From Candidatus Mcinerneyibacteriota bacterium (GTDB lineage Bacteria; Macinerneyibacteriota; Macinerneyibacteria; Macinerneyibacteriales; DSCS01), in assembly GCA_016937175.1 (NCBI GenBank), contig JAFGWL010000056.1:1-64000 (forward strand): a stretch of DNA of 64,000 nt, written 5' to 3'. Shown here piece by piece: positions 15,954-51,063 of the stretch. The notes beneath the pieces were generated by a model. That model saw only the letters and a program-made list of their open reading frames with translations, was not told where the DNA came from and did not search any database. Both the position numbers and the translations under genes were made by a program. Numbering within the stretch: the stretch's first letter is position 1; the number at the start of each line of letters is the position of its first letter.

Positions 15954-18900
15954 TTACTGATCGCTGTTTTCCAACTCTTTTAAAAGTTCTTTGACAGCGG
16001 TTTCCAGCTGCTGGTCACGGCCCCTGGAGATGACTTCATAATCAGTATCCACTCTGATATCGGGCTCCAGCTGCTGATTTTCCAGGTAGCTCCCGCTGAG
16101 ATCACGTCCCCCGATCTCCGGTATCCCGAAATTGATGGCCGGATCCTGAAGCCGTTCCCACCAGACAGAAGTCATGGTGCCGGGAACGGGCATCCCGACA
16201 AGTTTTCCGAGGCCCATGGTCTTGTAGGCGTAAGGAAAGCCATGCGCATCGGAATAGTTACCTTCGCTCATGATGACGATACTCTTTTTGAACCAGTAGC
16301 GCGAAGTATCATAGCCGTAATCCTGGCCCCGGGGTGTCCAGTGAATATATTTTTCTCCGTTGAGAAGCATCACCAACTCCTCGGTAAGATTCCCGCCGCC
16401 GTTGAACCGGGTATCCACGATGATACCCTCTGCGTCGGCATACCTTCCGAACATATCATGATAGACAAGGTTATAACTGGTTGAATTCATGGAGGGGACA
16501 TGGACATACCCCAATTTCCCTTCAGAAAGAGCTTCCACTGTCTGCCGGTTCTTTTCCACCCAGCGGTCGTAGAGGCTCCAGTAATCGGAGTTCTCTGCTT
16601 TGATGAAGATGTCTTCATCTCCGGAAAAGATCCCGGGCCTGTTGACTGTCACTTTGACAAAAGTCCCCTCTTTATGGTTCAGAGCGGCAAAATAATCTCT
16701 GAGAGAAGTGACCGGCCTGCCGTCGATTTTTTTAATCAGGGTCCCTTCGGGAATGTAGGCCCCTGTTTTGAAGAAAGCTCCGCCGGGGATCACCTCTTTG
16801 ATAACGACCCCCTCCCTGTTTTCATCATCAAAGCCGAAAAAGATCCCTAAAGCAGCAATGTTATCGCGCTCCTTTGAAGAGAGCCGGGCATAAGCCCCTG
16901 TATGTGAGGCATTAAGCTCCCCGAGCATCTCGCTGGCCAGTTCGGCAAAATCAAAATCATTATTGATGGAAGGGAGAAAGGGCTCATATTCCCTTCTGTA
17001 CATCTCCCAATCGACGCCGTGCATCCCCGGGTCATAGAACTTCTCCTTCACCTGACGCCATATATGTTCAAAGAGATAGGCTCTCTCTTGTTTAAGTTTC
17101 AGATACTGTTCCGCTTCAAAAGCGACCGACTGTTTTTCCCTGGTCATCACATTATAGGAGAGGATGGCTCCCTTGGTCAGAATCCAGATAGTATCTCTTT
17201 TTCTGTTGACTGCAGAGAGCCTGGTGTCTTCGGGGAATGTGGCGATCTGGGTGTATTCGTTCTGCCGCAGGCTCACTTTCCATAACTCGGTCTTGTCCGC
17301 ATGCCGCGAGAGATAATAGAGGCTGTCACCGTCTTCAGAGAGAAAAGTCCCTGCCAGCTGAGCCGGGAACCGTGTCAGCTTTATACTACGCTTTTCCAGA
17401 TTATTCCAGTCTATCTCGATCTTTCTGATCTTCTCTTTCTCTTTTTTCTCCTTATCCCCCTTCTCCTCCCCGGCTTTTTCTTCTTCTTTCCGGAGGCTGA
17501 TATATTCCTGGTATTCTTCGTTGTTAAGAGTCGCTTTGAGATAGGCGTCCCGGGTCATGTAAAGAGCATAGACATTATACTCTTCAAACCAACCCCCGAA
17601 GCGCTGTGTCCCGTATTTCCCCGTGTTGTATATGATGGCCTCTCCCTTCATCTCCCAGCTGGCGCCCCAATTGTAATACCCGCTCTCGGTGAGGTTGAAA
17701 ACGGGGCCCATTCCTTCCGCATCACGCATCCCTATGTCGTTAGTATTCTTTCCGTCGTTCAGCATGTCAAAAATGAGCCAGCGGCTGTCGGGAGACCAGC
17801 TGAAAAAGATGTCCCCGTCGATATAGGAGTAGTTTCTGTCCCCTTCCAGGATGGTCCTGGCCTTTTTTGAGTCAATGTCCATGACTTTCAAAATCTGCCG
17901 GTTCTCAAGATAAGCGACCTTTTCCCCGTCTGGGGAGAAGAGAGGCTGGAACTCTTCTTCAGGGCCGGTAGCCAGGGGGACCTCTTCCAGGGCTTTTGAA
18001 TAGGCAAAGGACTTCTCTTCTTTATCGGCCATCCGGGTCATGTAGATATCCCAGCTTCCGTTCCTTTCAGAGGCGTATACGACGGCACGTCCGTCGGGGC
18101 TGAACCCCACTGAACGCTCCTGTTCAGGGGTATCTGTGATCCGGATAGTCTTTTTGAATTTCACAGATGTCACAAAGACATCCCCCCGGACCACAAAGAC
18201 GATATCGGATTCATCAGGAGAGACATCAAACTCCGACACTCCCCCTGTATGGACGATCCGGTCTACAGCATAGTGTTTGGGCTCATTGATGATCTCCACA
18301 TCCACTTGATGGCTTTTTCCTCCCCGGTAGAGGTAGATCTCGCCGTGATATCCGTAACAGAGGGTGTTGTCTTCAGAAATAGTCAGGAATCGGACAGGAT
18401 GTTTCTTATGAAAAGTCAGCTGTGTGATTTTTGCAGGATCATCCAGAGGGAAGGAGGCCACATTGAAGTCCCCGAACTGCTCTGTCAGGTAGTAGACGGT
18501 CCTGTCGCTCTGGTCCAGGACAGGGTTCCGGTCTTCTCCTTTGAACTGCGTCAGCAGAGTATGGGTCTTTTTTTCAAAATCATAGAGCCTGATGTTCCGG
18601 GCCACAGAAGAGGTGTGATGTTTCCGCCAGGCATTCTCTCCCCCTTTGAGGTCCTGATAGAGAAGAAACGAGCCGTCTGCTGAAAAAGCGACTTCTTCAG
18701 CGGGGGTCGTCAGGATCCGGCGTATCCCGCGGTCATCCAGGGAGACACTGTAGAGCTCATCCAGATAGTACGCGGGATAGAGGCGGTTTTCGGGATCATC
18801 TTGGATATGGGCGCTGAAGAGGATCTCTTTTCCGTCGGGAGTATAGGCATAGGGGATCTCCGAGCCGGGGGCATTGGTCACACGTTCGGGCTCACCTCCC

Positions 18901-19184
18901 TGGAAGGGAACGGTAAAAATGTCAAAATGGCCGTATCGAAACGACGCAAAGGCCACGGCCTTTCCGTCTGGAGACCAGACCGGCCTGAAATCATAAGCTT
19001 CATTGACGGTCAGCTGCCGGGCCCTTCCCCCGCCGGATGAGACCACATAGATATCATCCTGGTAAGAAAAGGCGATCCATTCCCCGTCGGGGGAGATGGC
19101 CGGATAGCGTTTCCATTGGTATTCCTGAGCAAAAAGGAGGGTAACGGCAAACAGCAAAACAAGAGATAAAAAGATCTTTTTCAT
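15954..19184 (-). CDS. Exported tricorn-type protease (S41 family, PDZ)
   Basis: A 1076-residue homologue of tricorn protease, here with a Sec signal peptide (MKKIFLSLVLLFAVTLLFAQ) and so periplasmic. N-terminal WD40/TolB-like propeller blades repeat the SPDG(E/K) motif many times (SPDGEWIAFS, SPDGKAVAFA, TPDGKEILFS, SPDGRAVVYA). A helical linker rich in Lys and Glu follows, then a tricorn C1 helical domain, a PDZ domain (about 770-860) and the S41 catalytic domain. The GG(G/N) oxyanion segment is FNGGGN, and the likely nucleophile is S978 in NYSDAHGF. Tricorn degrades peptides released by larger proteases. GGAG precedes the ATG, and a CCGTATAAA promoter core lies 26 bases upstream. Confidence 0.92.
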   Translation of the reverse strand: MKKIFLSLVLLFAVTLLFAQEYQWKRYPAISPDGEWIAFSYQDDIYVVSSGGGRARQLTVNEAYDFRPVWSPDGKAVAFASFRYGHFDIFTVPFQGGEPERVTNAPGSEIPYAYTPDGKEILFSAHIQDDPENRLYPAYYLDELYSVSLDDRGIRRILTTPAEEVAFSADGSFLLYQDLKGGENAWRKHHTSSVARNIRLYDFEKKTHTLLTQFKGEDRNPVLDQSDRTVYYLTEQFGDFNVASFPLDDPAKITQLTFHKKHPVRFLTISEDNTLCYGYHGEIYLYRGGKSHQVDVEIINEPKHYAVDRIVHTGGVSEFDVSPDESDIVFVVRGDVFVTSVKFKKTIRITDTPEQERSVGFSPDGRAVVYASERNGSWDIYMTRMADKEEKSFAYSKALEEVPLATGPEEEFQPLFSPDGEKVAYLENRQILKVMDIDSKKARTILEGDRNYSYIDGDIFFSWSPDSRWLIFDMLNDGKNTNDIGMRDAEGMGPVFNLTESGYYNWGASWEMKGEAIIYNTGKYGTQRFGGWFEEYNVYALYMTRDAYLKATLNNEEYQEYISLRKEEEKAGEEKGDKEKKEKEKIRKIEIDWNNLEKRSIKLTRFPAQLAGTFLSEDGDSLYYLSRHADKTELWKVSLRQNEYTQIATFPEDTRLSAVNRKRDTIWILTKGAILSYNVMTREKQSVAFEAEQYLKLKQERAYLFEHIWRQVKEKFYDPGMHGVDWEMYRREYEPFLPSINNDFDFAELASEMLGELNASHTGAYARLSSKERDNIAALGIFFGFDDENREGVVIKEVIPGGAFFKTGAYIPEGTLIKKIDGRPVTSLRDYFAALNHKEGTFVKVTVNRPGIFSGDEDIFIKAENSDYWSLYDRWVEKNRQTVEALSEGKLGYVHVPSMNSTSYNLVYHDMFGRYADAEGIIVDTRFNGGGNLTEELVMLLNGEKYIHWTPRGQDYGYDTSRYWFKKSIVIMSEGNYSDAHGFPYAYKTMGLGKLVGMPVPGTMTSVWWERLQDPAINFGIPEIGGRDLSGSYLENQQLEPDIRVDTDYEVISRGRDQQLETAVKELLKELENSDQ

Positions 19185-27149: not shown

Positions 27150-27962
27150 CTACCGGATCTCTTTAGCACCTGAGCAGATATAGACGACACTCATCAGGTA
27201 GCGGTACATCTCTTGTGCATTTTGAAACTGCACCTTGATTTTTCGGGGATGAAGAAGCTCAGCTCCCGGGATAACGGAACACATATAACCCTGGAGGGCA
27301 TCCCGGAACTCGATCTCCATCCGTCCCGGTACTTTCAGCGAAAGAAGCGTACCCCGGTTCTCTTTTAACATCTCCCCTTCTCTTTCCAGTTTATTAAGAA
27401 GCTCCCGGTGAGGAAGCATCACGCCTGCAAATTTGGATATCGCCCTTTTAGAGACCAGAAACCGCGCTTCAGGGACTTTCGGGGAAAGGAAATCCCGTGT
27501 GACATCGTCTCCGTATACAAAAGAGACCGGGACTTTGAACTCTCCTGCCAGATAGGCATTGATGATCCCCTCGTCCACCGGTTCTCCGTTGACAGATATC
27601 CCGTAGACTGAAGACCCGGAATAGGTATGCTCCATCATCCCGCCGCCCCCTGCCGGGCTATGATATCCGAAGAGGACAAGATGGGTGAAGGTCGAATCTA
27701 TTCCCTCCATCATATAAAAATTACGGGGATATCCTTTAATAAGGGTCACATCTTCTTCCAGCCTGTCCCACAGGATGTTTCGCCCCAAAGCATGAGAGTC
27801 ACACAGGACGATCTCTGCATCAGGGACACTCCTGCGTATTCCGCGGCAGAAAGCATTGATCTCTTCAGTGGCAAGCCGGTCCTGTTCAGGAAGCCCGGAG
27901 GCCTCAGCCCAGGATGTCACTCCTCCGATGCCTTCGTAATCAAATGAGATAAAGACTTTCAT
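27150..27962 (-). CDS. dppA: M55-family D-aminopeptidase (DppA-like)
   Basis: A 270-residue zinc peptidase related to Bacillus DppA, which releases D-alanine from D-amino-acid peptides such as cell-wall fragments. Expected ligands are visible: D8 and E10 in SFDYEG, a His near 57 in CDSHALG, a His near 101 in GYHSPAG and acidic residues in NGEPVDE. The ATG at 27962 is used because GGAGG lies 4 bases upstream. A GTG one codon earlier is too close to it. It leads the six-gene operon and has its own good promoter. No dipeptide ABC transporter is adjacent. Confidence 0.9.
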   Translation of the reverse strand: MKVFISFDYEGIGGVTSWAEASGLPEQDRLATEEINAFCRGIRRSVPDAEIVLCDSHALGRNILWDRLEEDVTLIKGYPRNFYMMEGIDSTFTHLVLFGYHSPAGGGGMMEHTYSGSSVYGISVNGEPVDEGIINAYLAGEFKVPVSFVYGDDVTRDFLSPKVPEARFLVSKRAISKFAGVMLPHRELLNKLEREGEMLKENRGTLLSLKVPGRMEIEFRDALQGYMCSVIPGAELLHPRKIKVQFQNAQEMYRYLMSVVYICSGAKEIR

Positions 27963-27999
27963 CACTCCTCCTTTTCGGGCTTCTTGAAAAGATAGTAAA

Positions 28000-31151: not shown

Positions 31152-34100
31152 TTATTCTCTCTCCAATGGAATACGGCCGCTGATAAGGAACGAATGATAG
31201 ATTTTTTCAGCGATCATGGTTCCCAGAAGCTGGAAATAGGAGCTGTCAGAAGCTACCGAATAACGGTCGGAATCGATCCTTAGGTAGACGGAAGCTGTCG
31301 TCCTCTTGTTCAAATCCACTCTCCGTATCAGATCTCCTTTCTCTTCATCACCCGGGAGAGCCGGATCCGTGATCAGACGGCTGCTTTCTCCCTGCAATCC
31401 CAGACAATAAATATCTTCTGATACGTCCAAAACAATAAAAAATGAGCTGGCATGGAAGTAAGTGACCAGCAGGTCAAAGATCTGCCTGACCATGGCCTCC
31501 GGCCCGGTGATGGGTCGGATTTTTTGCGCCAGGTCAAAAACAGCATCGATCTTCTCACTTTCTCTCACAGGATCCCGGAGAGGTTTCGCTTCCTTCTCTT
31601 TTTCCCTGCGCTCAGGGACTCCCCGGATATAAACGGTTCTGTTTCTCCCGCTCTCTTTGGCATAGTAGAGGGCCTCATCTGCTTTGGCTACGAGCTCTTC
31701 CAGAGCCTTTCCGTCATCGGGGTAGAGGGCATAACCTATACTGCATGTCAATTTATAATTCTGGTTCAACACGGAATTTTCAGTGTTCTTCCGGACCCGG
31801 TCAATGATCTTTTCTCTGTCGGCATCTCGGGGTATGATCATGGAGACACAAAACTCTTCTCCTCCATACCGTCCCACAAAGTCACTCATGCGGACAGTCC
31901 CCTTGACAATACGCCCCATCTCTTTCAGGACCGAGTCCCCTCGTGAATGGCCGTAGGTATCGTTGATATTCTTGAAATGGTCCAGGTCCAGAATGGCGAT
32001 GAGAACCTGCTGTTCAGACTTATCGGCATAATCCAGCATATCCTGTGTAAGATTTATCCAATGCTCCCTCTTATAAAGGCCTGTGAGCCGGTCAAGAAGA
32101 GCTGTCCTCTTCAAATAATCATAGTATCCCGCTGCATTGATAAAGTCCCGGAAAGGGCCTAACCCTTCGGTGATTTCTTTGTCAGGATAGAGGAGAAGAC
32201 GAGTCGTATCCAGGTAGAGACACCCTCTAAGAGCAAAGTAGTGAAAACTTGATTGCCTGTTTTCCCGTGTTTTGCTTTTTCCCCGCCCCAGTTTTTCAAT
32301 ATCCAGTACGGGAATGATCAGGATCCCCGTCAGGTTCCGTCCCTGCCTCTTCTCTTCCCGGTGATAGAAGATATCCCTATGGGCCTTTTCAAAAAGGATC
32401 TCATTCAGAAGGTCCCGCCTCATGGGAACCGGAACATGATACCGTCCTTCTTTTTCGATCACAAGTTTCTCTGTCCAGCCCGAATAGAGGTCATATTCGA
32501 AAAAGCCCCCCCGTGTCATCCCTGTGATATCCATAAGGTCCACGAGGATCGACTTATAGAGCCCTGTCCCCTCATTGACCGGAGATAGCTGGTAATCCTC
32601 CAGAGCCTTTCTCTTGCTCTCTGCAATCATCTCACGGGCGAGATCACGGTGGGCCTCTCTGAAGAGATCGGGCCGGTCAACCACCGGGTCGATGCCATGC
32701 TTTTTCAGAAGGCTTGCATGAAAAGCCCATTCTTTGTTTTGTTCCATGAAGGAGGTTCTGTACTGTATGGGGACTGTATTAAGCCACTCTTTCATTTGGG
32801 TAAAGAGGTCCAGGAGGACATCATAGAAGAGAGCTGTCCCCTCTTCATGCTTCTCAACAAGAAGATGAAGTGTATAAAGCATCTGAGAAGATCTGTAAAA
32901 GGGTGCAGCATAAACCCTTTCCAGTGCCTCTTCACTTCCGAGAAAAGCTCTGAGGAGGTCGGAGCGGTTCTTCTCCTCTCTCTCCTCGATTTCAAAACCT
33001 TTTCTCTCAAGAGTATCCAGAAAGCGGACAGCCAGGTCTTTATCTCCCGAAAGCCAGGCCTTCTCCGCTCCATGAAGAAGGAGTGTGCTATAATGCTTTT
33101 TATCTTCTTCTGCAGAGTACCGGCGCAAAATAGCATCCATCTCCTTTTCCATGGCTTTCAGCCCCGCTTCCTCTGCCCGGGCTGTGAGAGAGACGACCAG
33201 GTATTCCACGCATTCTCGAAGAGAGGGACGGTCTTCAAAAAAGGCCCCTGCTTCTTTCAAAGCGGCCCGGGCCCGCTCATGGTCTCCCAGTTCAAACAGA
33301 AGGTCTGCCAGCAGGAAATTCATCTTAGCCCCCTCGCGGACCCCTTTTTCGTCTCCCAAATAATCAAATCCTTTGCTGATGACATCATAGGCTTTGTCAT
33401 AGTAATGGAGTGTCTTGTAGGCTTGGGCTAAATTCATTGTATTGATGGTAGCTGCATGAAAGAAATGGATCCGTTCTGCTGCCCTGACAGCACGGATCCA
33501 GGAAGAAATGGCCTCTTCAATTTCGCCCCGGTCGATGTTGACGATCCCTGTGTTGGTGGAAACGATGGCGATAAGCCTCTGATCGTCCAGGCGCTGGGCT
33601 ATCTCCAGGGCTTTTTTGAAATATTCATGGGCACGGTCGACCTCTCTGGCCCTTCGGTAGGCGATGGCTCTTGCGTTATAAGCATTGAACTCTGCATCTA
33701 AAGAGATGTGTTCCCGATTTTTTTCGACGATTGAAAGCATCTGCTGGGCTGTCTCTTCCATTTTTTTATTGTTCTGATTATCCATATAACTTATCATAAG
33801 CTCATTAAGGAAGAGCGATTTCCGGTTTTCGTCAAGTCCGTCGATCATCTCCCTGAAGCCGCAGACCATCTCTTCGACTCTATCATATTCACTTTTTGTG
33901 ACATAAAAGACCAGAAGGTTGTAAAAAACAGTCCCCCATTCTTCCGGGTGATCTGCCGGCCCTTTCTCGATAAATCCCATGAGTTCCTTTATATCCTCTT
34001 TATCCCCGTTGGACAGGATGACAAGCCGATAACTCTTGTAAAGGGTCTTTAACAAAGGAGTATCCGCAAAAGCCTCCATCTGGGAGAGGACGACATCTTT

Positions 34101-35927
34101 GCCGATGAAACGCTGAAAATCATGCCGATATAATACCTCATAGAGTTTGAAGAGATTGACTCCCGTCAGGTTTTGAGCAGAATTATGGATCTGGGAAAAC
34201 AGGTTATAGAAAAAGCGGTGATGGACCGACTGTTCCCTGACACCCATCATCAGATAATGGCTCATGGCCTTGTGATAAGCCTCGGCGCCGAATCCCGTGT
34301 TCAGTGCCAGATAGACGAAGGTTTCAAGATAGGAAAGCTCCCGGAACCCGTTCTCTTCAAAATAATCCAGGACAAGACGGGCCAGAGCGGGGTCGACTTT
34401 TTTCTCCCCGGTCTCTATCAGGGAGGAGAGACGGAATACATAGAAGAGTTCATCCCGATAGGCCACATCCTGCTCCTCCAGAACCGCCAGGGCTTTTTGC
34501 AGAGAGACGGGAGCCTTTTCAACAAAATCCTGAGGGATCTTTCCACCCATAGCCCGTCCCAGAGCCAGAGCCTCTTTCGTATCCTCCTCTGTTTTCCCCT
34601 TAAAAGCTGCGATACTGATTCCGGTGCAAAAACACCCCTGCGTCCGTGGAAAAGATCCCCGGGCTTCGATAAGCTTAAAACATTCCTTATCAGCTGCCTT
34701 ACACAGGCTTTTCCTGACCAGGGAAGGCTCTCCCCCGCTCTGGTCCAGAAGCTCCTTAACGGCTTCTTGCATGTCATCAACGAAATAATAGTAGTAATGA
34801 AGCACACGTGCGGTTTCTTTTTCATCCAGTTTCGCCATGGTCAAAGGGAACATTCCGGGAAGGGGCCTTCGGTTCCAGGCTACGACACGGAGGTCTTTCG
34901 GTTGAAAACGCCTGGAAAGATAAGTCAAAAACCGCATATCTTCTTCAGACAGCTCCTCTCCTCTGCCCAGGCCTAAAAGGGCCGGGCCCGAGGCGACTTT
35001 ATTTTCCAAAAAACGGATTGCTTTGGCACGCATCTCTTCAGGGGTCCTCGCCACAGACTCCCGGCCCTCTTCTTCAGACCGGCCCAGGTATTTTATGATC
35101 CCTTCTGCGAGGGAAGCCTTCTCCTCTTCCAGCCCGAAATACTCATACCCTTTAGCCTGGATCAGGGGGATAAGGCCCTGATACCAGAGACGGGCATTTT
35201 CTTCAGAAGCATAATCATAAACGGTTGTGAGAGACTCCGTGGTTTCCAATAGGGAGATCTCTCTCTCTGACAGGATCAAGGCTCCCGGGAAAGGGGTCGA
35301 GCAGGCATGGCCCTGAATAAAGTCCCTCTGAAGGCTATCAGAGATCACTTCGCGATGAGGAAAATAGAGCCGGAGGTCTGGTACATCTTCGTCAGAGAGT
35401 TTGTATCCTGCTTCATTCATCAAACGGGTAAAGGCCATCAGGTCCGCTCGGCGGCCCATATCGATATCGACATAAAGCGGGCTCATATCAAAAAAGACAG
35501 GGTTCCTTTTTGTATCCCTCAAGGCATTGCTTTCACGGAGATCCCCGTGGTAAGTCCCGTTAGCATGAAGAAAAGAGATGAGAGAAAAAAGGCTGTTGAT
35601 CAACATCTCTTTGTTCTCCGGGTTCATTCGAAAAAGCCCCGGCATCTTATCAGCGATATAAAAAGAGCGGGAACTGTCTGTGTAACGGCCGTCTATACTC
35701 GCCAGGGTGTGAAAAGAGCGGATAGGCCGCAGAAGTGGATGCCTGTAAAGAGAGGTAACCATATATTCTTTTGTCAGAAGGTCCTTTTGGAATTTTTCTT
35801 CAGAAACTGTTATTTTGAGGATAAGCTCTCTTTTTGGGAAAAAAAGGTCGCCTGCTTCATAGACGATAAAATTATTGTTTTTATTAAGAAGTTTTTTAAT
35901 CGTAAAGCGTCCGTTGACCAGTTTCAT
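31152..35927 (-). CDS. Giant kinase-like/TPR/GAF/GGDEF diguanylate cyclase
   Basis: A 1591-residue cytosolic signalling protein with no signal peptide or TM helix. Residues 1-200 are a Ser/Thr-kinase-like domain with Lys38, HGDLRESN (D129, N134) and DFG changed to DMS (D147). Residues about 215-430 resemble an AAA/STAND unit without a P-loop, and about 430-1050 are TPR helices. A GAF-like domain (about 1080-1250) precedes GGDEF (1278-1435), which has GGEEF at 1355-1359 and an intact inhibitory RxxD (RMSD, 1346-1349). A C-terminal GAF-like domain ends the protein. It should make c-di-GMP. It is the last gene of the four-gene operon, 18 bases after the M19 gene, and a paralogue of 37826-42565. 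Confidence 0.9.
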   Translation of the reverse strand: MKLVNGRFTIKKLLNKNNNFIVYEAGDLFFPKRELILKITVSEEKFQKDLLTKEYMVTSLYRHPLLRPIRSFHTLASIDGRYTDSSRSFYIADKMPGLFRMNPENKEMLINSLFSLISFLHANGTYHGDLRESNALRDTKRNPVFFDMSPLYVDIDMGRRADLMAFTRLMNEAGYKLSDEDVPDLRLYFPHREVISDSLQRDFIQGHACSTPFPGALILSEREISLLETTESLTTVYDYASEENARLWYQGLIPLIQAKGYEYFGLEEEKASLAEGIIKYLGRSEEEGRESVARTPEEMRAKAIRFLENKVASGPALLGLGRGEELSEEDMRFLTYLSRRFQPKDLRVVAWNRRPLPGMFPLTMAKLDEKETARVLHYYYYFVDDMQEAVKELLDQSGGEPSLVRKSLCKAADKECFKLIEARGSFPRTQGCFCTGISIAAFKGKTEEDTKEALALGRAMGGKIPQDFVEKAPVSLQKALAVLEEQDVAYRDELFYVFRLSSLIETGEKKVDPALARLVLDYFEENGFRELSYLETFVYLALNTGFGAEAYHKAMSHYLMMGVREQSVHHRFFYNLFSQIHNSAQNLTGVNLFKLYEVLYRHDFQRFIGKDVVLSQMEAFADTPLLKTLYKSYRLVILSNGDKEDIKELMGFIEKGPADHPEEWGTVFYNLLVFYVTKSEYDRVEEMVCGFREMIDGLDENRKSLFLNELMISYMDNQNNKKMEETAQQMLSIVEKNREHISLDAEFNAYNARAIAYRRAREVDRAHEYFKKALEIAQRLDDQRLIAIVSTNTGIVNIDRGEIEEAISSWIRAVRAAERIHFFHAATINTMNLAQAYKTLHYYDKAYDVISKGFDYLGDEKGVREGAKMNFLLADLLFELGDHERARAALKEAGAFFEDRPSLRECVEYLVVSLTARAEEAGLKAMEKEMDAILRRYSAEEDKKHYSTLLLHGAEKAWLSGDKDLAVRFLDTLERKGFEIEEREEKNRSDLLRAFLGSEEALERVYAAPFYRSSQMLYTLHLLVEKHEEGTALFYDVLLDLFTQMKEWLNTVPIQYRTSFMEQNKEWAFHASLLKKHGIDPVVDRPDLFREAHRDLAREMIAESKRKALEDYQLSPVNEGTGLYKSILVDLMDITGMTRGGFFEYDLYSGWTEKLVIEKEGRYHVPVPMRRDLLNEILFEKAHRDIFYHREEKRQGRNLTGILIIPVLDIEKLGRGKSKTRENRQSSFHYFALRGCLYLDTTRLLLYPDKEITEGLGPFRDFINAAGYYDYLKRTALLDRLTGLYKREHWINLTQDMLDYADKSEQQVLIAILDLDHFKNINDTYGHSRGDSVLKEMGRIVKGTVRMSDFVGRYGGEEFCVSMIIPRDADREKIIDRVRKNTENSVLNQNYKLTCSIGYALYPDDGKALEELVAKADEALYYAKESGRNRTVYIRGVPERREKEKEAKPLRDPVRESEKIDAVFDLAQKIRPITGPEAMVRQIFDLLVTYFHASSFFIVLDVSEDIYCLGLQGESSRLITDPALPGDEEKGDLIRRVDLNKRTTASVYLRIDSDRYSVASDSSYFQLLGTMIAEKIYHSFLISGRIPLERE

Positions 35928-35945
35928 CTCATCTCCTGCCTCTTT

Positions 35946-36926
35946 TTATTGCTCCGTTTTTTTGGACTCGTCCGGCCGTCCCATGGGCTCCATGAGACGC
36001 CAGGCGTTTCGATAAGCGATTTTTTCACACTCCCCTATGGTAAATCCCGCTTTTCTAAAGGCCTCAAACAACCTGGGTATCCCTGAATAATCCTCCAATT
36101 CCAGAGGACAGAATATTCCGTCGAAATCACTTCCCAAAGCGCAGGCCTCTATTCCCCCGCATCTTTTTAGATGTCTCATATGAGCGACAATTCCTTCAAT
36201 GGTGCCGGTTTCTCCCGTGCCGAGAAAAGCAGAAGAAAAATTGACCCCGATGACTCCCCCACGTCCGGCTACATCACGGATCATCTCATCTGTGAGATTC
36301 CTTGGATGCGGGGTTATGGCCCTGCAGCAGGAGTGGCTGGCCAGGAAAGGCCCTTCCATGATCGCTGCCACGTCTTTGAACCCCCTGTCTGACAGGTGAG
36401 AGACATCCACGAGGATCCCCTTTTGTTCCATGGCTTTAACAGCATCTTTTCCCAAGTCCGTAAGCCCCTTTTCCGTGTGGACCCAATCTTTATTGGGATA
36501 CCCGAGCGAATTGGGGAAATTCCAGGTAAGTGTGATCAGCCGCACGCCTTTGCTGAAGAGAAGGTCGATGTCTTCCGGGGAAGTTATGATCCCTCCCTCT
36601 TCCAGCGTCAGTATGGCACTGATCTTATTTGAAGCTTTGTTTTTTTCAACATCCTCCAGAACGCGTGCCGATTCCAGTCCCGGAAGGGCTTCAATTTCTT
36701 CATAAAAACGGCTGATCATGGAAAAGGCATAATCCCTGTATTCTTCGATGGCCTTCGCCGGATCGCCCATATAGATGAAAGCAGCAAAGAACTGAGCTAA
36801 AGCTCCCCCTTTTCTCAGCTTCTCCATATCAATATGATACCCGTTTTTTTTGAAATCTCCTCCGTAAGTAAAGGTGCGCCACAGAGTATCGCAATGGAGG
36901 TCGATGACCGGAAAGGGAGCCTGCAT
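35946..36926 (-). CDS. M19-family membrane-dipeptidase-like zinc peptidase
   Basis: A 326-residue dipeptidase of the renal dipeptidase family. Zinc-site residues are visible as H11xD13 (DLHCD), the bridging Glu in LEEGG, His in VDVSHLS and SHSCCRA, and the GSDFDG segment near the C-terminus. Relatives hydrolyse dipeptides, often with a D-residue at the C-terminal side. There is no signal peptide, so it is probably cytosolic. The start at 36926 is four bases after the TAG of the upstream lipoprotein gene (TAGAGTGATG) and lacks a clear Shine-Dalgarno sequence, which suggests reinitiation. It lies between two c-di-GMP synthase genes. Confidence 0.9.
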   Translation of the reverse strand: MQAPFPVIDLHCDTLWRTFTYGGDFKKNGYHIDMEKLRKGGALAQFFAAFIYMGDPAKAIEEYRDYAFSMISRFYEEIEALPGLESARVLEDVEKNKASNKISAILTLEEGGIITSPEDIDLLFSKGVRLITLTWNFPNSLGYPNKDWVHTEKGLTDLGKDAVKAMEQKGILVDVSHLSDRGFKDVAAIMEGPFLASHSCCRAITPHPRNLTDEMIRDVAGRGGVIGVNFSSAFLGTGETGTIEGIVAHMRHLKRCGGIEACALGSDFDGIFCPLELEDYSGIPRLFEAFRKAGFTIGECEKIAYRNAWRLMEPMGRPDESKKTEQ

Positions 36927-36930
36927 CACT

Positions 36931-37809
36931 CTAGAGTCCGTTCCACCCTGCCAGCCGAGACCAGAGCCACCAGGCAGCATATGCCTTGAGATTTCCGTTC
37001 AGCGCCTGGGTATGGGCCGGATAACAGAGGTACCAATCTGTCCCCGAAGTATGAGCATCCTGCCATTGGATGGCCCAATTGGCATCGCGGATCTGATCCC
37101 CGTCTGAATCGTAATCACAATTATCATTGGCCAGCAAGGACAGATATTCCTCCCCGTCGGGATCATAACTCTCGATGTCGGCAAAATCGTAGAGGATCTT
37201 CTCATACTGCCTGCAGTAGGAGCGGATCTGTTCATTCCTCTGATGCAGGTTCCCGGCCAGGCCCGTTCCGTCCAGATGTCCGGTCATATAGACAAAAGCA
37301 ACCCCGGGATAATCGATCTCCAGCTGATTCATAAGATTCAGATAGGTCAGGATATCCTCTTCCGAGGCATCAGAGACCTGTCCGCACCAGGACCATATCA
37401 CCACATTACATTCAGGATGAGTGTCCAGATAGTCCCTGGTCGATTGGGCCCAGGAGACCCGGTCAGGGTTCCCCAGGTCGCTTGCTCCGCTGAAAGGGGT
37501 GTCCTGAAGATCCAAAGCTCCTCCGCTCCCGCCTTCATTCCAGGTATAGAGCCCCTCCCCCCCCATAAAGGCATCCAGGGCGTTCATCCCGGTAATGATC
37601 TGGCTTCCATGGGAAGTATGGCCGTAAGCGATATGGAGGTTCGTTTTAGCCGCCTCTATGGCCGATTCAGGGATCGCGTTGATGTCAGTACAAAGATGAT
37701 CCACAATAAACCCGTCGCTTAAGACAGGGTCCAGGATCTTCGACTCCGTTTTGGCACATCCCCACAGAAAAATCAAAAGAATGATAAGGAAAAAGAGCAT
37801 TTTTCTCAT
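36931..37809 (-). CDS. Secreted lipoprotein with SGNH-hydrolase-like features
   Basis: A 292-residue lipoprotein (lipobox LWGC). An early YGHTSHGSQI segment, CNVVIWSWCGQ, YMTGHLDG and a C-terminal D.NWAIQWQDAH suggest a hydrolase-like alpha/beta fold with conserved Ser and His residues. I cannot assign it to a named family with certainty. An acidic stretch (NDNCDYDSDGDQIRD) resembles a calcium-binding loop. GGAGG precedes the ATG. It follows the 1579-residue cyclase gene by 16 bases and precedes the M19 dipeptidase by 4. Cell-wall or polysaccharide hydrolysis is a guess. Confidence 0.65.
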   Translation of the reverse strand: MRKMLFFLIILLIFLWGCAKTESKILDPVLSDGFIVDHLCTDINAIPESAIEAAKTNLHIAYGHTSHGSQIITGMNALDAFMGGEGLYTWNEGGSGGALDLQDTPFSGASDLGNPDRVSWAQSTRDYLDTHPECNVVIWSWCGQVSDASEEDILTYLNLMNQLEIDYPGVAFVYMTGHLDGTGLAGNLHQRNEQIRSYCRQYEKILYDFADIESYDPDGEEYLSLLANDNCDYDSDGDQIRDANWAIQWQDAHTSGTDWYLCYPAHTQALNGNLKAYAAWWLWSRLAGWNGL

Positions 37810-37825
37810 ATGACCTCCTCCGTCT

Positions 37826-40800
37826 TCAAGTATCCTCTTCTTTTTGAATGGTATGAAAGGATGCTAAAAAGACCTTTTCACTGATAATATTCCCCAGCAT
37901 CGTAAAAAAACGTTCATCCTGCTGAAAAGAATAGCGGTCCGATCCCATCTCCAGATAGACCGAAACACTGTAATGTTCATGGATGGAATAGGTATTCAGC
38001 CTGGCTCCGCCTAACCCCCTGTCAGACTCCATCTCTCTTTTGCCCACCCCCTGGGCAGAGGCTTTTTTTTCGTAATAAATAAAGTGACTGTTCCCGCCCA
38101 TGAGAATTCCCAGACGTGTAGCTTGGAAAAGGGCTACGAGGATATCATAAATATCCGAAACGACCTCTTCAACAGGCATAAAGGGGTCGATCTTCTCTTC
38201 AATGCCCAGCAAGGCATCCAGCTTCTCTTTCTCCCGGACAGGGTCATCGATAGCCTTTTTATTGTTTTTCTTTTCTCCCGCTGCACTCGCCGGCATGGTC
38301 TCATAGGCGATGGTCACATTTCGTCCGCTCGATTTTGCATAATAGAGAGCTTCATCGGCCTGTCCCAGCAGAGAGTCTAAAATCTCTGCATCCCGGGGAT
38401 AGAGGGCATACCCTATGCTGACGGTCAGGTTGAACTTTTTGTTCAGGGCCGAACTCTGTACATTCGCCCGGATCCGGTCCGTGATACCGGAATAGGAAGC
38501 TTTCGGGGGAACCATCATGGCCAGGACGATCTCCTCGCCTCCATAGCGTCCGACGATATCTGAGGCTCTGACTGTCTCTTTGATAATAGCACTCACTTCT
38601 TTTAAAACAGCATCTCCCCTGGCATGGCCGTATCTGTCGTTAATATTCTTAAAATGGTCGATATCAAGGATGGCTATGATCACCTGCTGGTCATTGTTCA
38701 AAGCATATTCCATGAGTTTTTTGGTCAGATTGATCCAGTGTTCCCTTTTATAAAGGCCCGTAAGCTTGTCCATGAGAGCCGTCTGTTTCAGGTAATCGTA
38801 ATAGCCTGCGGCATTGATGTAATCTCTCAGGGGGCCCAGCCCCTCTGTGACCTCCGCGTCAGGCACCAGCAGCATCCTGTCGCTGTCCAGATAGATACAT
38901 CCCCTCAAGGCAAAGTAGTGGTAGCTTGACTGGCGCTTATTGTCTCCCCTGTATTTATTGTGTCCCAGTTTTTCTATGTCAAGCACCGGGATCACCATGA
39001 CAGCACTGGCAGAAGAACCTTTTCTGGCCGGTTCACGGCTGAAATAGACATCCCGATGGGATGATTCAAAAAGGACCTCGTTGATCGCCTCTTTATAGAC
39101 AGGAAGAGGTGGATGATATCCGGTCCCCAGGTCCAGAACCACTTTATGCTGCCACCCTTCATACATGTCATACTCATAATAGGCTGCCCGGGTCATGCCG
39201 GTGATCCGGATCAGGTCTTTCAGAATGGACCTGTAGAGATTCTCACCTTCACTCATGGGAGACAACCTGTAGTTTTTCAATGCCCGTTTTTTCTCTTCCC
39301 GGATAAAACGCCGTGCTGTCTGCTCATATTCCTGACGAAATGAGTCCAGATGAAATTTTTCGGACTCATACCCCTGTTCCCGGAGGAGCTTACTGTGGAA
39401 GCGCCATTCAGGATTCTTCTTTTTAAAGGAATCCCTGTATTGATAAGGGATATGCGCCAGCCAGCGGCTCATGATAGAAAGAAGCTGGGCACAATATTCC
39501 AGATGCAGTGCATTCTTCGTCTTCTCTTTTCGGATAAGAGCGTTAAGGACAAACATGGACCTGGAATACCCTGTAAACTCCCCCATCCCCTCTTCATCAA
39601 ACTCCCTCTTCTCTCCGCTGAGAAAGAGGATGACATCCATCATCTTCCTGTCCCCCGGCTCCAGGGTCTCCAGGGAGCCGGAGTCGATTTTTTTTACATA
39701 GTCAGCTGCATCCTGATAGTGGCCTGCACATAGGAGCTGAAGGGCAGCGGTCAGAAGGACGATACTGTAATAGGCCTGGTCTTCAGCGGAAGAAAAACGT
39801 GAAAAGAGGCCTTCGATAAACTCGTCCATGGACTTCTTCCCTTCTGCCTGGAAGAGAAGAGCGATTCTGACGTCGAAATACTCATAACTTACTTTTAAAG
39901 CGCTCCGTTCTTCATAAAAGGGGGCCGCTTCCTTCAAATGGGCTTTAGCCTGTTGATAATCCCCCAGTTCCATAAGCATATCCGCATAGAGAAGATGAAG
40001 CTTTGAATTTTCCCGGAGTGTAGGAGCTTCAGCCAGGTAAAGCTCTATTTTTTTAAAGGTCGACAGGGCTTGCTCATACTGATGGAGAAGTTTGTAGACT
40101 AAAGATAGGTTGATCGAGTTTGTAACCATTGAAAAATAGATCTTTGCCTGCTCAGCAGCTTTCACTGCGCTTGTCCATGAGGCCGTACAAGCTTCATAAT
40201 CTCCTGAATAGTAGTGTATGACACCGATATTAGTTGCCACAATAGCTTCGTAACGATAGTTCTCCAGGATCCGTGCGATCTCAAGTGCTTTGTTATAGTG
40301 GACCAAAGCCTCCGGAAGACGTCCCTGTCTGCGGAGAACGATGGCCAGATTGTTATGGCTGCTGAAGTGGGCATCCAGCCCTGTTTTCTCTCCTTTTTTT
40401 CCAACGATCTCAATCATGGACCGGGCTGTCTCCTGCATCTTTTCAAGATCCATCTTATCCATATAACAGGAAAACATCTCATTCATGACCATGACCCGGT
40501 TTTCATCGTTCAACGATTCGATGGGCTTTTTATATTTCTCCATGAGCTGTTCCATCTCTTCATAGCGGCCGAGGAATTTCAACTTCAGCAGGACATGCCG
40601 GAGAACGAGGGCCCAGGTATCCTTCTCCTTCCGGTCATAAGCATCCAGAAAAGGGTACATCGCCCTTACATCATCCAGAGTCGCTTTATCATCCAGAGTC
40701 AGCTTAAAAGCCTTTGTGACCTGCTTCTCTCGTTCCGTCCGCCCCTCTTTCTCCAATTTTTCCAACAGGAGGGAATTGTCATAGACATGATTGTGATCCA

Positions 40801-42565
40801 GCTTCAATAAGTTCAGATAGAGGTCAAAGGAGTTTCCCCCTTTCATCTCCCCGATATTTTTTTCAAAGGCCCGGAAGAGGCGAAAAAAGAGGACACGGTT
40901 CAGAGAACGCTCCCTTTCGCTCAACCGGTTGTAAAAAGAGAGGATCTTTTCGTAAGCTTCTTCCCCCTGCCCGGTGTTTAGCGAATAAAAGACATAGCTT
41001 TCAAGATAAGCCTTCTCCTGAAATGCAAGTCTTTCCAGCTCATCATACAAAGGACGTTGATCCGTCGTCGTAAATTTTTGTCGGACAAGATCGCCGGGGA
41101 TCCTGTTCAACCGCAGGATGAAGAAAAGTTTGTCCCGGTAAAAAGCTTTCTCTTCCATGAGGTAGATAAGGGCCTTTTTTTCTTCAGAAGAGAAGAAATC
41201 GAAAAAAGAGGAAGGTATCTTTCCTCCCATGGATCGGGCCAGAACCACCACATCCTCTACGGCTTTTCGCTCAGAGCCGGGAATCTCCTTTAAGGAAATG
41301 GAAAAATCGAAACTCTCTTTCCCCTTATCCAGCGAGACAGTCCCGTTTTTGAATATAAGAGACTCTCCTGCAGCCATTTGACGGATAAGCCTAAGAAGGA
41401 GGGATGGCTCTCCTTCCGACTGACGCCACAGGGTCTTCGCGGCCTCTTCATCTTCGTTCAGATAAGGAATATAATACCGGAGGACGCGACAGGATTCTTC
41501 TTCTGTCAGAAGCGGGCAGGAGAGGTTTTCAAACTCTTCAGCAGGCTCGCGCTGCCAGATGAAAAAAGAGATACGATTGTTTTCAAAATGGTTCGCAATC
41601 TTTCTGAGCAGGCTAAGGTCATCACGGCTCATGGATTCTGCCGCTCCCAGCCCAATGGCCACAGGCCCATACCCGGCTGCATCTTCAAGAAAGCTCAGGA
41701 GCCCCTCTTCTCCGTCTGCGCCATTGACTGCCGCTGTAAGCCTCTGAGAAAGGGGTTCCGGGCCTTCTGCCCTGTAAAGCTCGATCCCCTCAGCCTGGAT
41801 AAGAGACAAGACCGCCTCATACCAGATACGGGCATTATCAGCACCACGATAATCATAGATCACCGTCACCGGCTGTATAAAAGTGAGCCCGTCCGGGGTT
41901 CTTGACTGTATAAGTCGTTCAGCTGGGAAGGGAGTGGCCCTGATATGCTCCAGTGCCACAGCTTTAACGTAATCATCCGAGATAAGAGAACGGAAACCGG
42001 GCAGCGAGAAGAGCTCCGTTGCATCCTCTTCCCTGAAGGGAAACCCGAGAGACCTCAGTAACTCAGCAACGGCTTTCATATCATTTTTCTGTCCCAGGGC
42101 ATTATTCACATAGAGAGGGCTCATATCAAAAAAAAGAGGAAGCCCCTGGCCGTCAGCCAGGATATTGCTTTCCCTGAGATCTCCGTGATAAGCTTCATTT
42201 CTGTGTAGAAACCCTAAAAAGACATAAAGGGCACTGATTAGGGTTCCGGCCTTCTGCTTGTCGGCCTGGAAAAGCGAGGGATATTTGTCGGCTATATAAA
42301 AGCAACGGGTTGTATCAGTGAATCGACCGTCGATGGTCCGCAAAGGGTGAAAGGAATCCAGGGGCCGAAGCAGCGGATGTCGGTTCAACAGGCCGGCAAG
42401 ATATTCCTTTCTCAGAAGATCAGTCTGAAAACGTTCTTCCGAAGCCGTGACCTTCAATATCTTCTCTTCGCCCGGAAAGAGGCGGTCGACCGCTTCATAG
42501 ACGATGAAATTGCTGTTCTCATTCAAAAGGGTTTTGATTTCAAAGCGGCCGTTGAATAGTTTCAT
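37826..42565 (-). CDS. Giant kinase-like/TPR/GAF/GGDEF protein (paralogue of 31152-35927)
   Basis: A 1579-residue cytosolic protein colinear with the 1591-residue paralogue. Its kinase-like N-terminus has the same key positions (Lys38, HGDLRESN at 127-134, DMS at 147), then a STAND-like region without a P-loop, TPR helices, a GAF-like domain, GGDEF and a C-terminal GAF-like domain. The cyclase signature is GGEEI (1342-1346), ending in Ile instead of Phe, with RxxD (RASD, 1333-1336) intact. Activity is likely but less certain than for its twin. It is the first gene of the operon. There is no Shine-Dalgarno sequence, and the -10 ends 6 bases before the ATG. Confidence 0.9.
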   Translation of the reverse strand: MKLFNGRFEIKTLLNENSNFIVYEAVDRLFPGEEKILKVTASEERFQTDLLRKEYLAGLLNRHPLLRPLDSFHPLRTIDGRFTDTTRCFYIADKYPSLFQADKQKAGTLISALYVFLGFLHRNEAYHGDLRESNILADGQGLPLFFDMSPLYVNNALGQKNDMKAVAELLRSLGFPFREEDATELFSLPGFRSLISDDYVKAVALEHIRATPFPAERLIQSRTPDGLTFIQPVTVIYDYRGADNARIWYEAVLSLIQAEGIELYRAEGPEPLSQRLTAAVNGADGEEGLLSFLEDAAGYGPVAIGLGAAESMSRDDLSLLRKIANHFENNRISFFIWQREPAEEFENLSCPLLTEEESCRVLRYYIPYLNEDEEAAKTLWRQSEGEPSLLLRLIRQMAAGESLIFKNGTVSLDKGKESFDFSISLKEIPGSERKAVEDVVVLARSMGGKIPSSFFDFFSSEEKKALIYLMEEKAFYRDKLFFILRLNRIPGDLVRQKFTTTDQRPLYDELERLAFQEKAYLESYVFYSLNTGQGEEAYEKILSFYNRLSERERSLNRVLFFRLFRAFEKNIGEMKGGNSFDLYLNLLKLDHNHVYDNSLLLEKLEKEGRTEREKQVTKAFKLTLDDKATLDDVRAMYPFLDAYDRKEKDTWALVLRHVLLKLKFLGRYEEMEQLMEKYKKPIESLNDENRVMVMNEMFSCYMDKMDLEKMQETARSMIEIVGKKGEKTGLDAHFSSHNNLAIVLRRQGRLPEALVHYNKALEIARILENYRYEAIVATNIGVIHYYSGDYEACTASWTSAVKAAEQAKIYFSMVTNSINLSLVYKLLHQYEQALSTFKKIELYLAEAPTLRENSKLHLLYADMLMELGDYQQAKAHLKEAAPFYEERSALKVSYEYFDVRIALLFQAEGKKSMDEFIEGLFSRFSSAEDQAYYSIVLLTAALQLLCAGHYQDAADYVKKIDSGSLETLEPGDRKMMDVILFLSGEKREFDEEGMGEFTGYSRSMFVLNALIRKEKTKNALHLEYCAQLLSIMSRWLAHIPYQYRDSFKKKNPEWRFHSKLLREQGYESEKFHLDSFRQEYEQTARRFIREEKKRALKNYRLSPMSEGENLYRSILKDLIRITGMTRAAYYEYDMYEGWQHKVVLDLGTGYHPPLPVYKEAINEVLFESSHRDVYFSREPARKGSSASAVMVIPVLDIEKLGHNKYRGDNKRQSSYHYFALRGCIYLDSDRMLLVPDAEVTEGLGPLRDYINAAGYYDYLKQTALMDKLTGLYKREHWINLTKKLMEYALNNDQQVIIAILDIDHFKNINDRYGHARGDAVLKEVSAIIKETVRASDIVGRYGGEEIVLAMMVPPKASYSGITDRIRANVQSSALNKKFNLTVSIGYALYPRDAEILDSLLGQADEALYYAKSSGRNVTIAYETMPASAAGEKKNNKKAIDDPVREKEKLDALLGIEEKIDPFMPVEEVVSDIYDILVALFQATRLGILMGGNSHFIYYEKKASAQGVGKREMESDRGLGGARLNTYSIHEHYSVSVYLEMGSDRYSFQQDERFFTMLGNIISEKVFLASFHTIQKEEDT

Positions 42566-48582: not shown

Positions 48583-51063
48583 TTAACCCAACCGTTGCAA
48601 CACCCTGGACAGTTCGGCAATAGAAAACGGCTTCTGTAAAAAGCCCACGGCTCCTTCCCTGGTCATAGCCCGGATCCTCTTGTCGCCAGTAAAACCGGAA
48701 ATCAGGATAACGGAGACCCTGCTGTCTATTTTTTTCAGCTCCCGGAAGGTCTCGTACCCGTCCATCCCCGGCATGGAGAGGTCCAGCAGGACTCCTTTGA
48801 ATTCACGGCCCTGTTCCCGATACAGAGCGATTCCCTCGGGCCCGCCGGAAACACAGATAGCTTCATATCCGCAAAGCTGAAGCATCTCACTGGTAAAATC
48901 TCTGACCAGGCTTTCATCATCGATGATAAGGACCCTCCCTTCTCCCCTGATGATCTCATCCGTCACGGCCGGACATTGCGGAGCAGCTTTTTCCCCCTGG
49001 TAAGCGGGAAGAGTAATGGTAAAGAGAGTCCCTTTTCCCTCTGAGGAATCAACGGTGACTGTTCCCCCGTGCCTGTTCACGGCATTGGAGACCATGATGA
49101 GTCCGAGTCCACTTCCGGCAGCTTTCTCTTTTGTGGTGAAAAAGGGGTCGAAGATCTGCCTGCGCACCCGTTCACTCATCCCCACTCCTGTATCCCGGAC
49201 AGTGATCACCCATGAAGCCCCCCCCTCTGCGGAGGGATGGAGAGCGACTGTCAGGGTCCCCCCCTTTTTCTCTTTTTCCGGGCGCATGATGGTCATGGCA
49301 TGTTCGGCATTGACACAGAGGTTCAGGAGCATATGTTCGATCTGATAATAATCTCCGCTGATCAGGGCTTTTTGATCAAAAAAGTGAAAATCGAGGACCA
49401 CCGATTTGTCCAGAGTATTCTTACAGATCTCAAAGATCTCTTCGAGGGCATCATTCAAGTCAAAGAGGGTCTCCTCCCCGCTGTTCATTTTGGATAAGCT
49501 GAGGAGCCTGTCGATCACCGATGAAGCTCGGCGTGAAGCTTTAGACAAGTTAGAAAGATAACCCAGGAGTTTCTCTTTATCGAGTTGTCCGCTCCTGTTG
49601 ATATAGTATTCAGCCAGAGAGACCGTCCCTTCTATTCCCCCGAGGACATTGTTGAAATCGTGAGCCAGCCCTCCTGCCAGTGTTCCCACGACTTCCATCT
49701 TCTGAGCTTGAAGAAGCTGTCGGTTCATGAGATGGGATTCTGTCACGTCATCCACCCGGACTACCCCTTCCCTGCTGTTTTCTGTAAAGGGGAAAAAGGT
49801 GACATTTAGATAATATTCGGATTCTCCCGATTCATAGGGAAGCCCGAGGATGGTTTTTTCCCTGCCTTTTTTTGCAGCTTCCCGGATCTCAGACTCCACC
49901 GAGGCGAAGAAGGGGGAGACTTGCCCCAGTGAGAAATAACGTCCTTTCAGATGCTGAATGCCAAAGACACGCTCAGCAGCTTTGTTCCAGCCGGTCACGG
50001 TAAGGCCCCTGTCAATGGTGATCAGGACTGAAGGGGAAGAATCGATGATTCCCTGAAAATAGTTCTTGGACTCGGTGAGAGCCTTTTCCATCCGCCGGAT
50101 CTCTTCCATCTCCTTTTTTGCCCGGGTGTTTTTCAGGCTCAGATAGATAAAGCCGGCGACCAGAGCCATAAGGACGAAAATGGTGAGAAAAAGACGCCAC
50201 CGGTAACCCAGCAAAACCTCGACCTCACTGCTGTGAGGAGTCGAGACAGCGACTGACCAGAAGGTATCCCCCATCCTGATAGGATAGAAGGAGGCGTATA
50301 TGGTGATATTTTTCTCAGAATCCTCCGGTTTAAGGAAATAGGTGCCTTTTCCCTTCAATCCCTTGAGCATGTTGGTGATGATACTCTCGAACCCGGGAGC
50401 TTCCTGGTGAAGGGCTCTTATCTTTTGTCCGATAAGCTCTTTAACAGGGTGGTAGATGATATACCCACCCTCTGAGATGACCCAGGGATACCCTTCCCCT
50501 GAGGTCCCGACGGGTTCGAAAAAACGACGGGCGATGGAATCAAAGGGGATCAGAACGGTAATACACCCTTTGAACGCTTCTCCTGCGAAAACGGGATAGG
50601 CATAGGCTACAGCCTGATATCCCTGAACAGTTTCAAAGACATCGCTGACCACAGGCTTGTGATCCTTTAAGATGCGTTCATTATGTGGTTGCGAACTAAC
50701 ATCCATCCCGAGGACATCTTCCCGGACAGGATAGGTCCCTCTGATCCGTCCCGATTCATCGATCCGGGTCACAGCGATGATGCTCCCTTCATTGGCACGA
50801 TAATAACGCTCCAGGAGCATCCCCATATCAAAGGTGTTGTAGATCACCCGGTTATGGGCCGACAGAAAATTCAGGTCTTTCTCGTAATGGCTGAAATATT
50901 CCCTGAGGGCTACCGAAGTCTGTTCGACGATGAGTTCGCGCTGCCGTTCGTGATGCCGGATGATCTCCTGAGAGATCTTATTATAATTGACCAGGAGAAA
51001 CAGCAGCCCTACACAGGTGAGACACCCTCCGATAAGAATCGATTTTGTAATTTTACCGTCCAT
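48583..51063 (-). CDS. Membrane hybrid sensor histidine kinase (Cache-PAS-HisKA-HATPase-REC)
   Basis: An 826-residue sensor with TM1 (about 8-26), a periplasmic double-Cache-like domain (about 35-280), TM2 (290-310) and PAS (about 325-445). The kinase core carries H468 in GLAHDFNN, followed by HATPase (DTGVGM, GSGLGLIMV) and a C-terminal REC with phospho-acceptor D761 (LLDLSMPG) and IDD near the start. The kinase core and REC match the paralogue at 2626-5256, but HAMP is not evident. It is transcribed alone from a promoter with a perfect -35. The output partner is not nearby. Confidence 0.92.
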   Translation of the reverse strand: MDGKITKSILIGGCLTCVGLLFLLVNYNKISQEIIRHHERQRELIVEQTSVALREYFSHYEKDLNFLSAHNRVIYNTFDMGMLLERYYRANEGSIIAVTRIDESGRIRGTYPVREDVLGMDVSSQPHNERILKDHKPVVSDVFETVQGYQAVAYAYPVFAGEAFKGCITVLIPFDSIARRFFEPVGTSGEGYPWVISEGGYIIYHPVKELIGQKIRALHQEAPGFESIITNMLKGLKGKGTYFLKPEDSEKNITIYASFYPIRMGDTFWSVAVSTPHSSEVEVLLGYRWRLFLTIFVLMALVAGFIYLSLKNTRAKKEMEEIRRMEKALTESKNYFQGIIDSSPSVLITIDRGLTVTGWNKAAERVFGIQHLKGRYFSLGQVSPFFASVESEIREAAKKGREKTILGLPYESGESEYYLNVTFFPFTENSREGVVRVDDVTESHLMNRQLLQAQKMEVVGTLAGGLAHDFNNVLGGIEGTVSLAEYYINRSGQLDKEKLLGYLSNLSKASRRASSVIDRLLSLSKMNSGEETLFDLNDALEEIFEICKNTLDKSVVLDFHFFDQKALISGDYYQIEHMLLNLCVNAEHAMTIMRPEKEKKGGTLTVALHPSAEGGASWVITVRDTGVGMSERVRRQIFDPFFTTKEKAAGSGLGLIMVSNAVNRHGGTVTVDSSEGKGTLFTITLPAYQGEKAAPQCPAVTDEIIRGEGRVLIIDDESLVRDFTSEMLQLCGYEAICVSGGPEGIALYREQGREFKGVLLDLSMPGMDGYETFRELKKIDSRVSVILISGFTGDKRIRAMTREGAVGFLQKPFSIAELSRVLQRLG

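Follow-up and report, generated by a model that had tools for sequence, protein, structure and literature searches.

Two giant proteins, A and B, encoded at the two ends of a cluster of four genes, are in our reading diguanylate cyclases regulated through TPR and GAF domains and built on a scaffold which does not switch. We give this reading a probability of about 60%. A and B would then be large cytoplasmic enzymes of a lineage-specific family, derived from a PknK-like kinase-STAND-TPR protein fused to a GAF-GGDEF part. The STAND-derived domain would be a scaffold linking the kinase-like domain to the TPR superhelix, input would reach the superhelix from a partner, either a protein or a peptide, and the GAF domain from a small ligand, and it would control the dimerisation of the GGDEF domains. 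The RxxD I-site would give feedback by the product, and HD-GYP phosphodiesterases would clear the c-di-GMP. The two genes in between, for a lipoprotein and an M19 dipeptidase, would provide envelope or peptide enzymes, probably co-transcribed and perhaps functionally linked with the sensors.

The four-gene cluster and its conservation

The cluster (see Table 1) lies in a window of 64,000 nucleotides, by which we mean the whole stretch of DNA analysed. An earlier note, made from the sequence of the window, had described four open reading frames, and all of them are present with the positions and lengths which it gave. A and B are colinear paralogues placed on either side of the lipoprotein and M19 genes. 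The intergenic gaps from A to B are 16, 4 and 18 bases, the gap of 4 bases depending on the start of the M19 gene being taken at the internal ATG at 36926. From this spacing we infer a single transcript, and a scan of the cluster found no decisive promoter or terminator inside it.

Table 1. Genes of the cluster (window positions) and parts of giant A (residues), the latter delimited from profiles, alignments and the structural model.
Feature	Position	Strand	Description
Giant A	37826..42565	(-)	1579 aa; GGEEI
Giant A parts	1-~215		kinase-like
Giant A parts	~227-~535		STAND-derived (including winged helix)
Giant A parts	~540-1100		helical/TPR
Giant A parts	~1101-1250		GAF
Giant A parts	1263-1416		GGDEF, followed by the C-terminal domain
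Lipoprotein	36931..37809	(-)	292 aa; predicted SGNH-fold hydrolase/acyltransferase; YGHTSHGSQ; invariant Ser66 and His266
M19 dipeptidase (renal/membrane dipeptidase family)	35946..36926	(-)	326 aa from ATG 36926
Giant B	31152..35927	(-)	1591 aa; GGEEF; domain order as in A

In a sister species, the four genes are found in identical order (L046:4338-15563), with protein identities of 59% for A, 74% for the lipoprotein and 64% for the M19 dipeptidase. The flanking genes also correspond on either side, those at 42.7-51.1 kb of the window to contig C34 and those at 24.1-30.6 kb to contig C1. The sister species has two extra giants here: X, which would follow directly on B if these two contigs abut, ahead of the next gene, and D, further on. 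Giants are thus gained and lost at this locus. The order-level relative G002 has a lipoprotein gene and an M19 gene on different contigs, the one with the lipoprotein gene carrying no giant, and in nine other sampled regions containing homologues of the lipoprotein both M19 genes and giants are absent nearby. The search for the same gene order in relatives, which the earlier note had proposed as a check, was thus positive in the sister species and negative outside the genus: as one sister species shares the order, it is known at the level of the genus only, from two species.

It could be argued that the two enzyme genes were caught as passengers when giants duplicated in tandem around them, and that nothing in their function ties them to the giants. 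The turnover of giants at the locus, where X and D occupy the same neighbourhood in the sister species, agrees with this, as does the wide and patchy distribution of lipoprotein homologues, which occur in 24 of 290 genomes. We nevertheless hold it to be somewhat unlikely, since the sister species, whose proteins are 59-74% identical, preserves both the order and the tight spacing despite that turnover nearby.

The window is rich in peptidase genes. An M55 D-aminopeptidase is encoded some 3 kb downstream of B (27150-27965), and one can also notice a tricorn-like S41 peptidase (15954-19184) and an M16/PreP-type peptidase (57701-60703). Two related hybrid kinases of the dCache-PAS-HisKA-HATPase-receiver type are encoded at 2626-5256 and 48583-51063; a 58% identical counterpart of the latter adjoins the cluster in the sister species.

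Domains of the giant proteins

The earlier note did not recognise as a system the P-loop-free version ending in GGDEF and duplicated around two enzymes. The combination of kinase, TPR and GGDEF, with or without a STAND part, is in fact known: Clostridium thermocellum ATCC 27405 encodes an 1826-aa protein with a kinase, six TPR and a GGDEF domain (Krupa and Srinivasan 2005, PMC1262709), which shares with A and B the giant size, the N-terminal kinase, the TPR and the C-terminal GGDEF domain, but was reported as a single protein. A second example, L128 (G107:C187), comes from an unrelated genome and runs off the end of its contig. It has the domain order of A and B (Pkinase 1.2e-47, AAA_16 2.7e-27, TPR, GAF 2.3e-19, GGDEF 6.3e-32) with a full kinase including APE and an intact P-loop, GAAGIGKS. 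Hence the architecture was already known, and A and B are an eroded and expanded variant of it. The kinase-ATPase-TPR-GGDEF design is known but rare in bacteria, and it is the degree of erosion and expansion which is unusual in A and B.

In both A and B, Pfam detects TPR and a GGDEF domain of full length, while kinase, AAA and GAF models have no match at threshold. The kinase-like domain is nevertheless recognisable by other means. A family profile of the region matches StkP (1.7e-19). In the AlphaFold model of residues 1-692 of A (mean pLDDT 87.8), the kinase-like part aligns to PknB with a Z score of 14.0 over 187 residues (rmsd 3.1), and the Foldseek and VIA matches listed for these residues are kinases. 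The motifs cited in the earlier note are there in A and B: K38, HGDLRESN (127-134), DMS (147), and an RxxD five residues before GGEE. Aligned with intact relatives, both proteins retain K38, E54, H127xD129, N134 and D147. The glycine loop is absent, NENSNF standing where GxGxxG is expected, and DFG has become DMS. The distance between the Asp of the DFG and the alpha-F Asp is 15 residues. In intact relatives this stretch measures about 34-46 residues and includes APE, so that A and B have lost most of the activation segment, APE included, and with it the platform on which a kinase receives its substrate. The shortened activation segment is common to the family, even to the paralogue C10, the front half of which is a canonical kinase (Pfam 1.8e-24, only up to model position 153). 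Catalytic residues kept while glycine loop and activation segment are lost: this makes a nucleotide-binding regulatory domain most likely, that is, a domain which would bind nucleotide as a regulator without ordinary protein phosphorylation.

The retention of these residues at about 20% identity could equally fit a working atypical kinase, lacking an activation loop as do APH, RIO and ABC1, which would set the activity of the cyclase by acting on its own GAF/GGDEF part, on the partner giant or on a small molecule. The six catalytic residues (Lys, Glu, His, Asp, Asn, Asp) are all present in 15 of the 19 members without P-loop, and the paralogue C20 matches models of ABC1, RIO, Kdo and APH kinases as well. 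The missing glycine loop, the DMS and the deleted activation segment of A and B speak against it; so does the related clade of C48, C3 and L138, where most or all of the catalytic kinase residues have been lost and the architecture retained. We therefore consider a working kinase to be unlikely and keep the nucleotide-binding regulatory domain as the preferred reading.

Next to this domain comes a region which hhalign aligns, with a probability of 98.7 (E 4.6e-16, 220 columns), to AAA_16 regions that bear a P-loop and belong to giant kinases of other genomes; a PDB sequence search with it returned no relevant match. Together with the kinase fold, this homology to a NOD bears out the PknK-like ancestry proposed in the earlier note. 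The absence of a P-loop, also proposed there, holds as well: a motif search for G....GK[ST] was negative everywhere in A and B, and at the place of the P-loop the model of A shows residues 233-237 as a strand, which a short loop connects to the helix 242-258. Where Walker B would be, A and B have GLGAAESMS and GLGRGEELS, without the Walker B acid. Relics of the motifs are visible in paralogues, GESGSLKET at the P-loop place of C48 and IILEDTSRLD at the Walker B place of C46. The GLHASGKT of C20 was ruled out as a P-loop, the alignment putting it immediately ahead of the Walker B column. In the MalT/PknK group, STAND proteins operate through an ADP/ATP switch of the NOD (PMC4381067). A and B resemble them in having a NOD derived from a P-loop NTPase, a winged helix and a helical-repeat sensor, and resemble PknK also in the N-terminal kinase; they differ in the loss of Walker A and B, which would make such a switch impossible, and in their GGDEF output.

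Of the two GAF-like domains described in the earlier note, the one before the GGDEF domain stands, with an hhalign probability of 76.7 (E 2.1e-5); we call this support moderate because there is no Pfam match at threshold. The C-terminal one found no support in profile comparisons, hhalign giving probabilities of 0.6 and 1.0 against GAF, although in L128 a weak GAF_3 match (8.8e-8) occupies the corresponding position after the GGDEF domain. Other known proteins share part of this arrangement. The HstK-type dual kinases of cyanobacteria have, as A and B do, an N-terminal Ser/Thr kinase, a GAF domain and a C-terminal signalling output (PMC2176072), this output being a histidine kinase instead of a GGDEF domain. 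In RcbB of Vibrio vulnificus, the TPR domain represses the attached GGDEF domain (PMC12282931); RcbB pairs TPR with GGDEF like A and B, but without a kinase or STAND part.

The GGDEF domains match the Pfam model with 1.1e-37 and 7.3e-39 over positions 1-161 and 1-160 of 161. Their catalytic and I-site motifs are complete (DxDHFK..ND..GH..GD, RxxD, AK..GRN), and the best reading of these intact motifs is that A and B are diguanylate cyclases, a prediction from sequence. A cGAMP (Hypr-type) output was set aside, as the GD of GHARGD is kept; we take this residue to tell Hypr-type from c-di-GMP output. In GGDEF enzymes, the fifth residue of the motif is not known to be a metal or substrate ligand. 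The earlier note had suggested, from the GGEEI of A, that this protein is a possibly altered cyclase. We find this unsupported, since GGEEI persists from one species to the other and A is otherwise intact in its catalytic motifs. A broader version of the idea has A as a weakened cyclase or as an I-site receptor of c-di-GMP, forming a heterodimer with an active B. The genes are indeed co-directional and tightly spaced, and in the sister species the orthologues retain their respective motifs, GGEEI for A and GGEEF for B. However, the fifth residue is not a known ligand, DxDHFK, ND, GD and AK..GRN are intact in A, of which GGDEF is the best-conserved part, and the paralogue X likewise has GGEEI. 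Such a heterodimer is in our opinion distinctly improbable, and we retain two predicted cyclases. Literature searches on PknK with GGDEF and on GGEEI found nothing.

The giant family and the c-di-GMP network

The earlier note had presented A and B as a duplication around two enzymes. The colinear pair is real, but it is not isolated: the genome (1.88 Mb, 71 contigs) encodes six giants, namely A, B, C46 (1609 aa), C10 (1704), C48 (1680) and C20 (1471). With a combined length of 28.9 kb they take up about 1.5% of the genome, and of its 14 GGDEF domains six are theirs. Fragments included, at least eight giants are found in the sister species (G001) and at least five in the order-level relative (G002). 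In a tree, A, B and the extra X of the sister species form one clade beside C46/C95, while C10, C48 and C20 fall in other clades. Between the A orthologues of the two species, GGDEF is the best conserved domain (82% identity), followed by GAF (74%), kinase (59%) and STAND, the least conserved (43%).

A scan of genome contigs with a single protein gave no match to the giants, and an alignment-based scan matched only the sister MAG SpSt-1200, which is G001 and was deposited as 'Bacillota bacterium'. The full-length query retrieved essentially GGDEF domains only from 57 broader genomes. With a kinase-STAND profile, P-loop-free giants of the C20 type were found in G032 and G179, which belong to another family. 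These kinase-TPR-GGDEF proteins of about 1475 aa (L120:4618-9045 and L121:3763-8184) group with C20.

Other clades show different states. In the clade of C48 (L050:4672-9714, L056:5226-10283 and L138:125-5179), the kinase, the STAND domain and probably the cyclase are degenerate, the GGDEF domains of C48 and C3 carrying MGEEF and KSND, and the clade has been kept between genera. These giants may be purely structural or receptor proteins. The giant with a canonical kinase front (L049:3895-9009 on contig C10, L054:1825-6978 and L053:5240-10447) adjoins parA/parB-like and murI/priA-like genes in three genomes out of three, as judged by eye from the starts of translations. Giants other than A and B adjoin unrelated genes.

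In whole genomes G000, G001 and G002, we counted 14-15 GGDEF domains per genome and several HD-GYP proteins in each (five HD-GYP proteins were found), while a search for EAL and PilZ in the same three genomes gave no match.

The lipoprotein, the dipeptidase and their possible role

The M19 gene is a normal member of its family by sequence (Pfam Peptidase_M19 9.7e-81; alignment with solved dipeptidases 5.9e-32). In the alignment with 3id7, the His-x-Asp, Glu, His, His and Asp positions, which we take to be the ligands known in the family, are kept. No signal peptide is visible.

For the lipoprotein, an SGNH fold is predicted from its model (pLDDT 83.9). Foldseek matches it to PatB (E 2e-4), and the structural alignment has a Z score of 11.3 over 186-188 residues; the best 50 structural matches listed are mostly SGNH-type enzymes, PatB and acetylesterases being the nearest. 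This resemblance lends support to the secreted hydrolase-like lipoprotein of the earlier note. With PatB and the SGNH acetylesterases it would share the fold, at about 12% identity, and it belongs to a family with its own GHTSHG motif: the Y-x-HTSHG motif, its Ser66 (in GHTSHG) and the His266 (in AHTQ) are invariant in 12 homologues. None of the Pfam models reaches this family, and a PDB sequence search returned no relevant match. We rejected a haemophore (MHB) identity, the Pfam match being below the cut-off and in conflict with the SGNH model. Homologues (L061-L089) with up to 67% identity occur in genomes related only at the domain level, which, with the patchy spread of the family, suggests horizontal transfer.

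A link between the giants and the turnover of peptides or of the cell wall is possible. One can imagine a circuit in which the lipoprotein would alter the acetylation of peptidoglycan or of some other glycan, incoming dipeptides would be consumed by the dipeptidase, and the TPR arms would sense the fragments and set the level of c-di-GMP. The conserved order of the four genes, the likeness of the lipoprotein model to PatB and acetylesterases, the M19 family and the neighbouring M55 gene are all consistent with it. We give it only a slight chance, because the other giants adjoin unrelated genes and the lipoprotein homologues of ten sampled regions lie near neither M19 genes nor giants. The main reading of A and B as regulated cyclases on a non-switching scaffold is the one we prefer. 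To go further and see in the chassis without P-loop and activation segment a non-switching sensor arm for cyclases, multiplied to between six and eight copies within a genome of 1.9 Mb, together with a dedicated circuit of A, lipoprotein, M19 dipeptidase and B which reads envelope peptides into c-di-GMP, seems to us improbable.

What the family means for this lineage can be put in two points. A small genome devotes some 1.5% of its DNA to six giant c-di-GMP enzymes, and does so without recognisable EAL or PilZ domains. Moreover, a single lineage offers a graded series which goes from a canonical kinase front to proteins with no catalytic residues left. With this series, and with an intact kinase-STAND-TPR-GAF-GGDEF protein available elsewhere, it can be asked which parts of STAND/kinase giants serve sensing and which serve catalysis.
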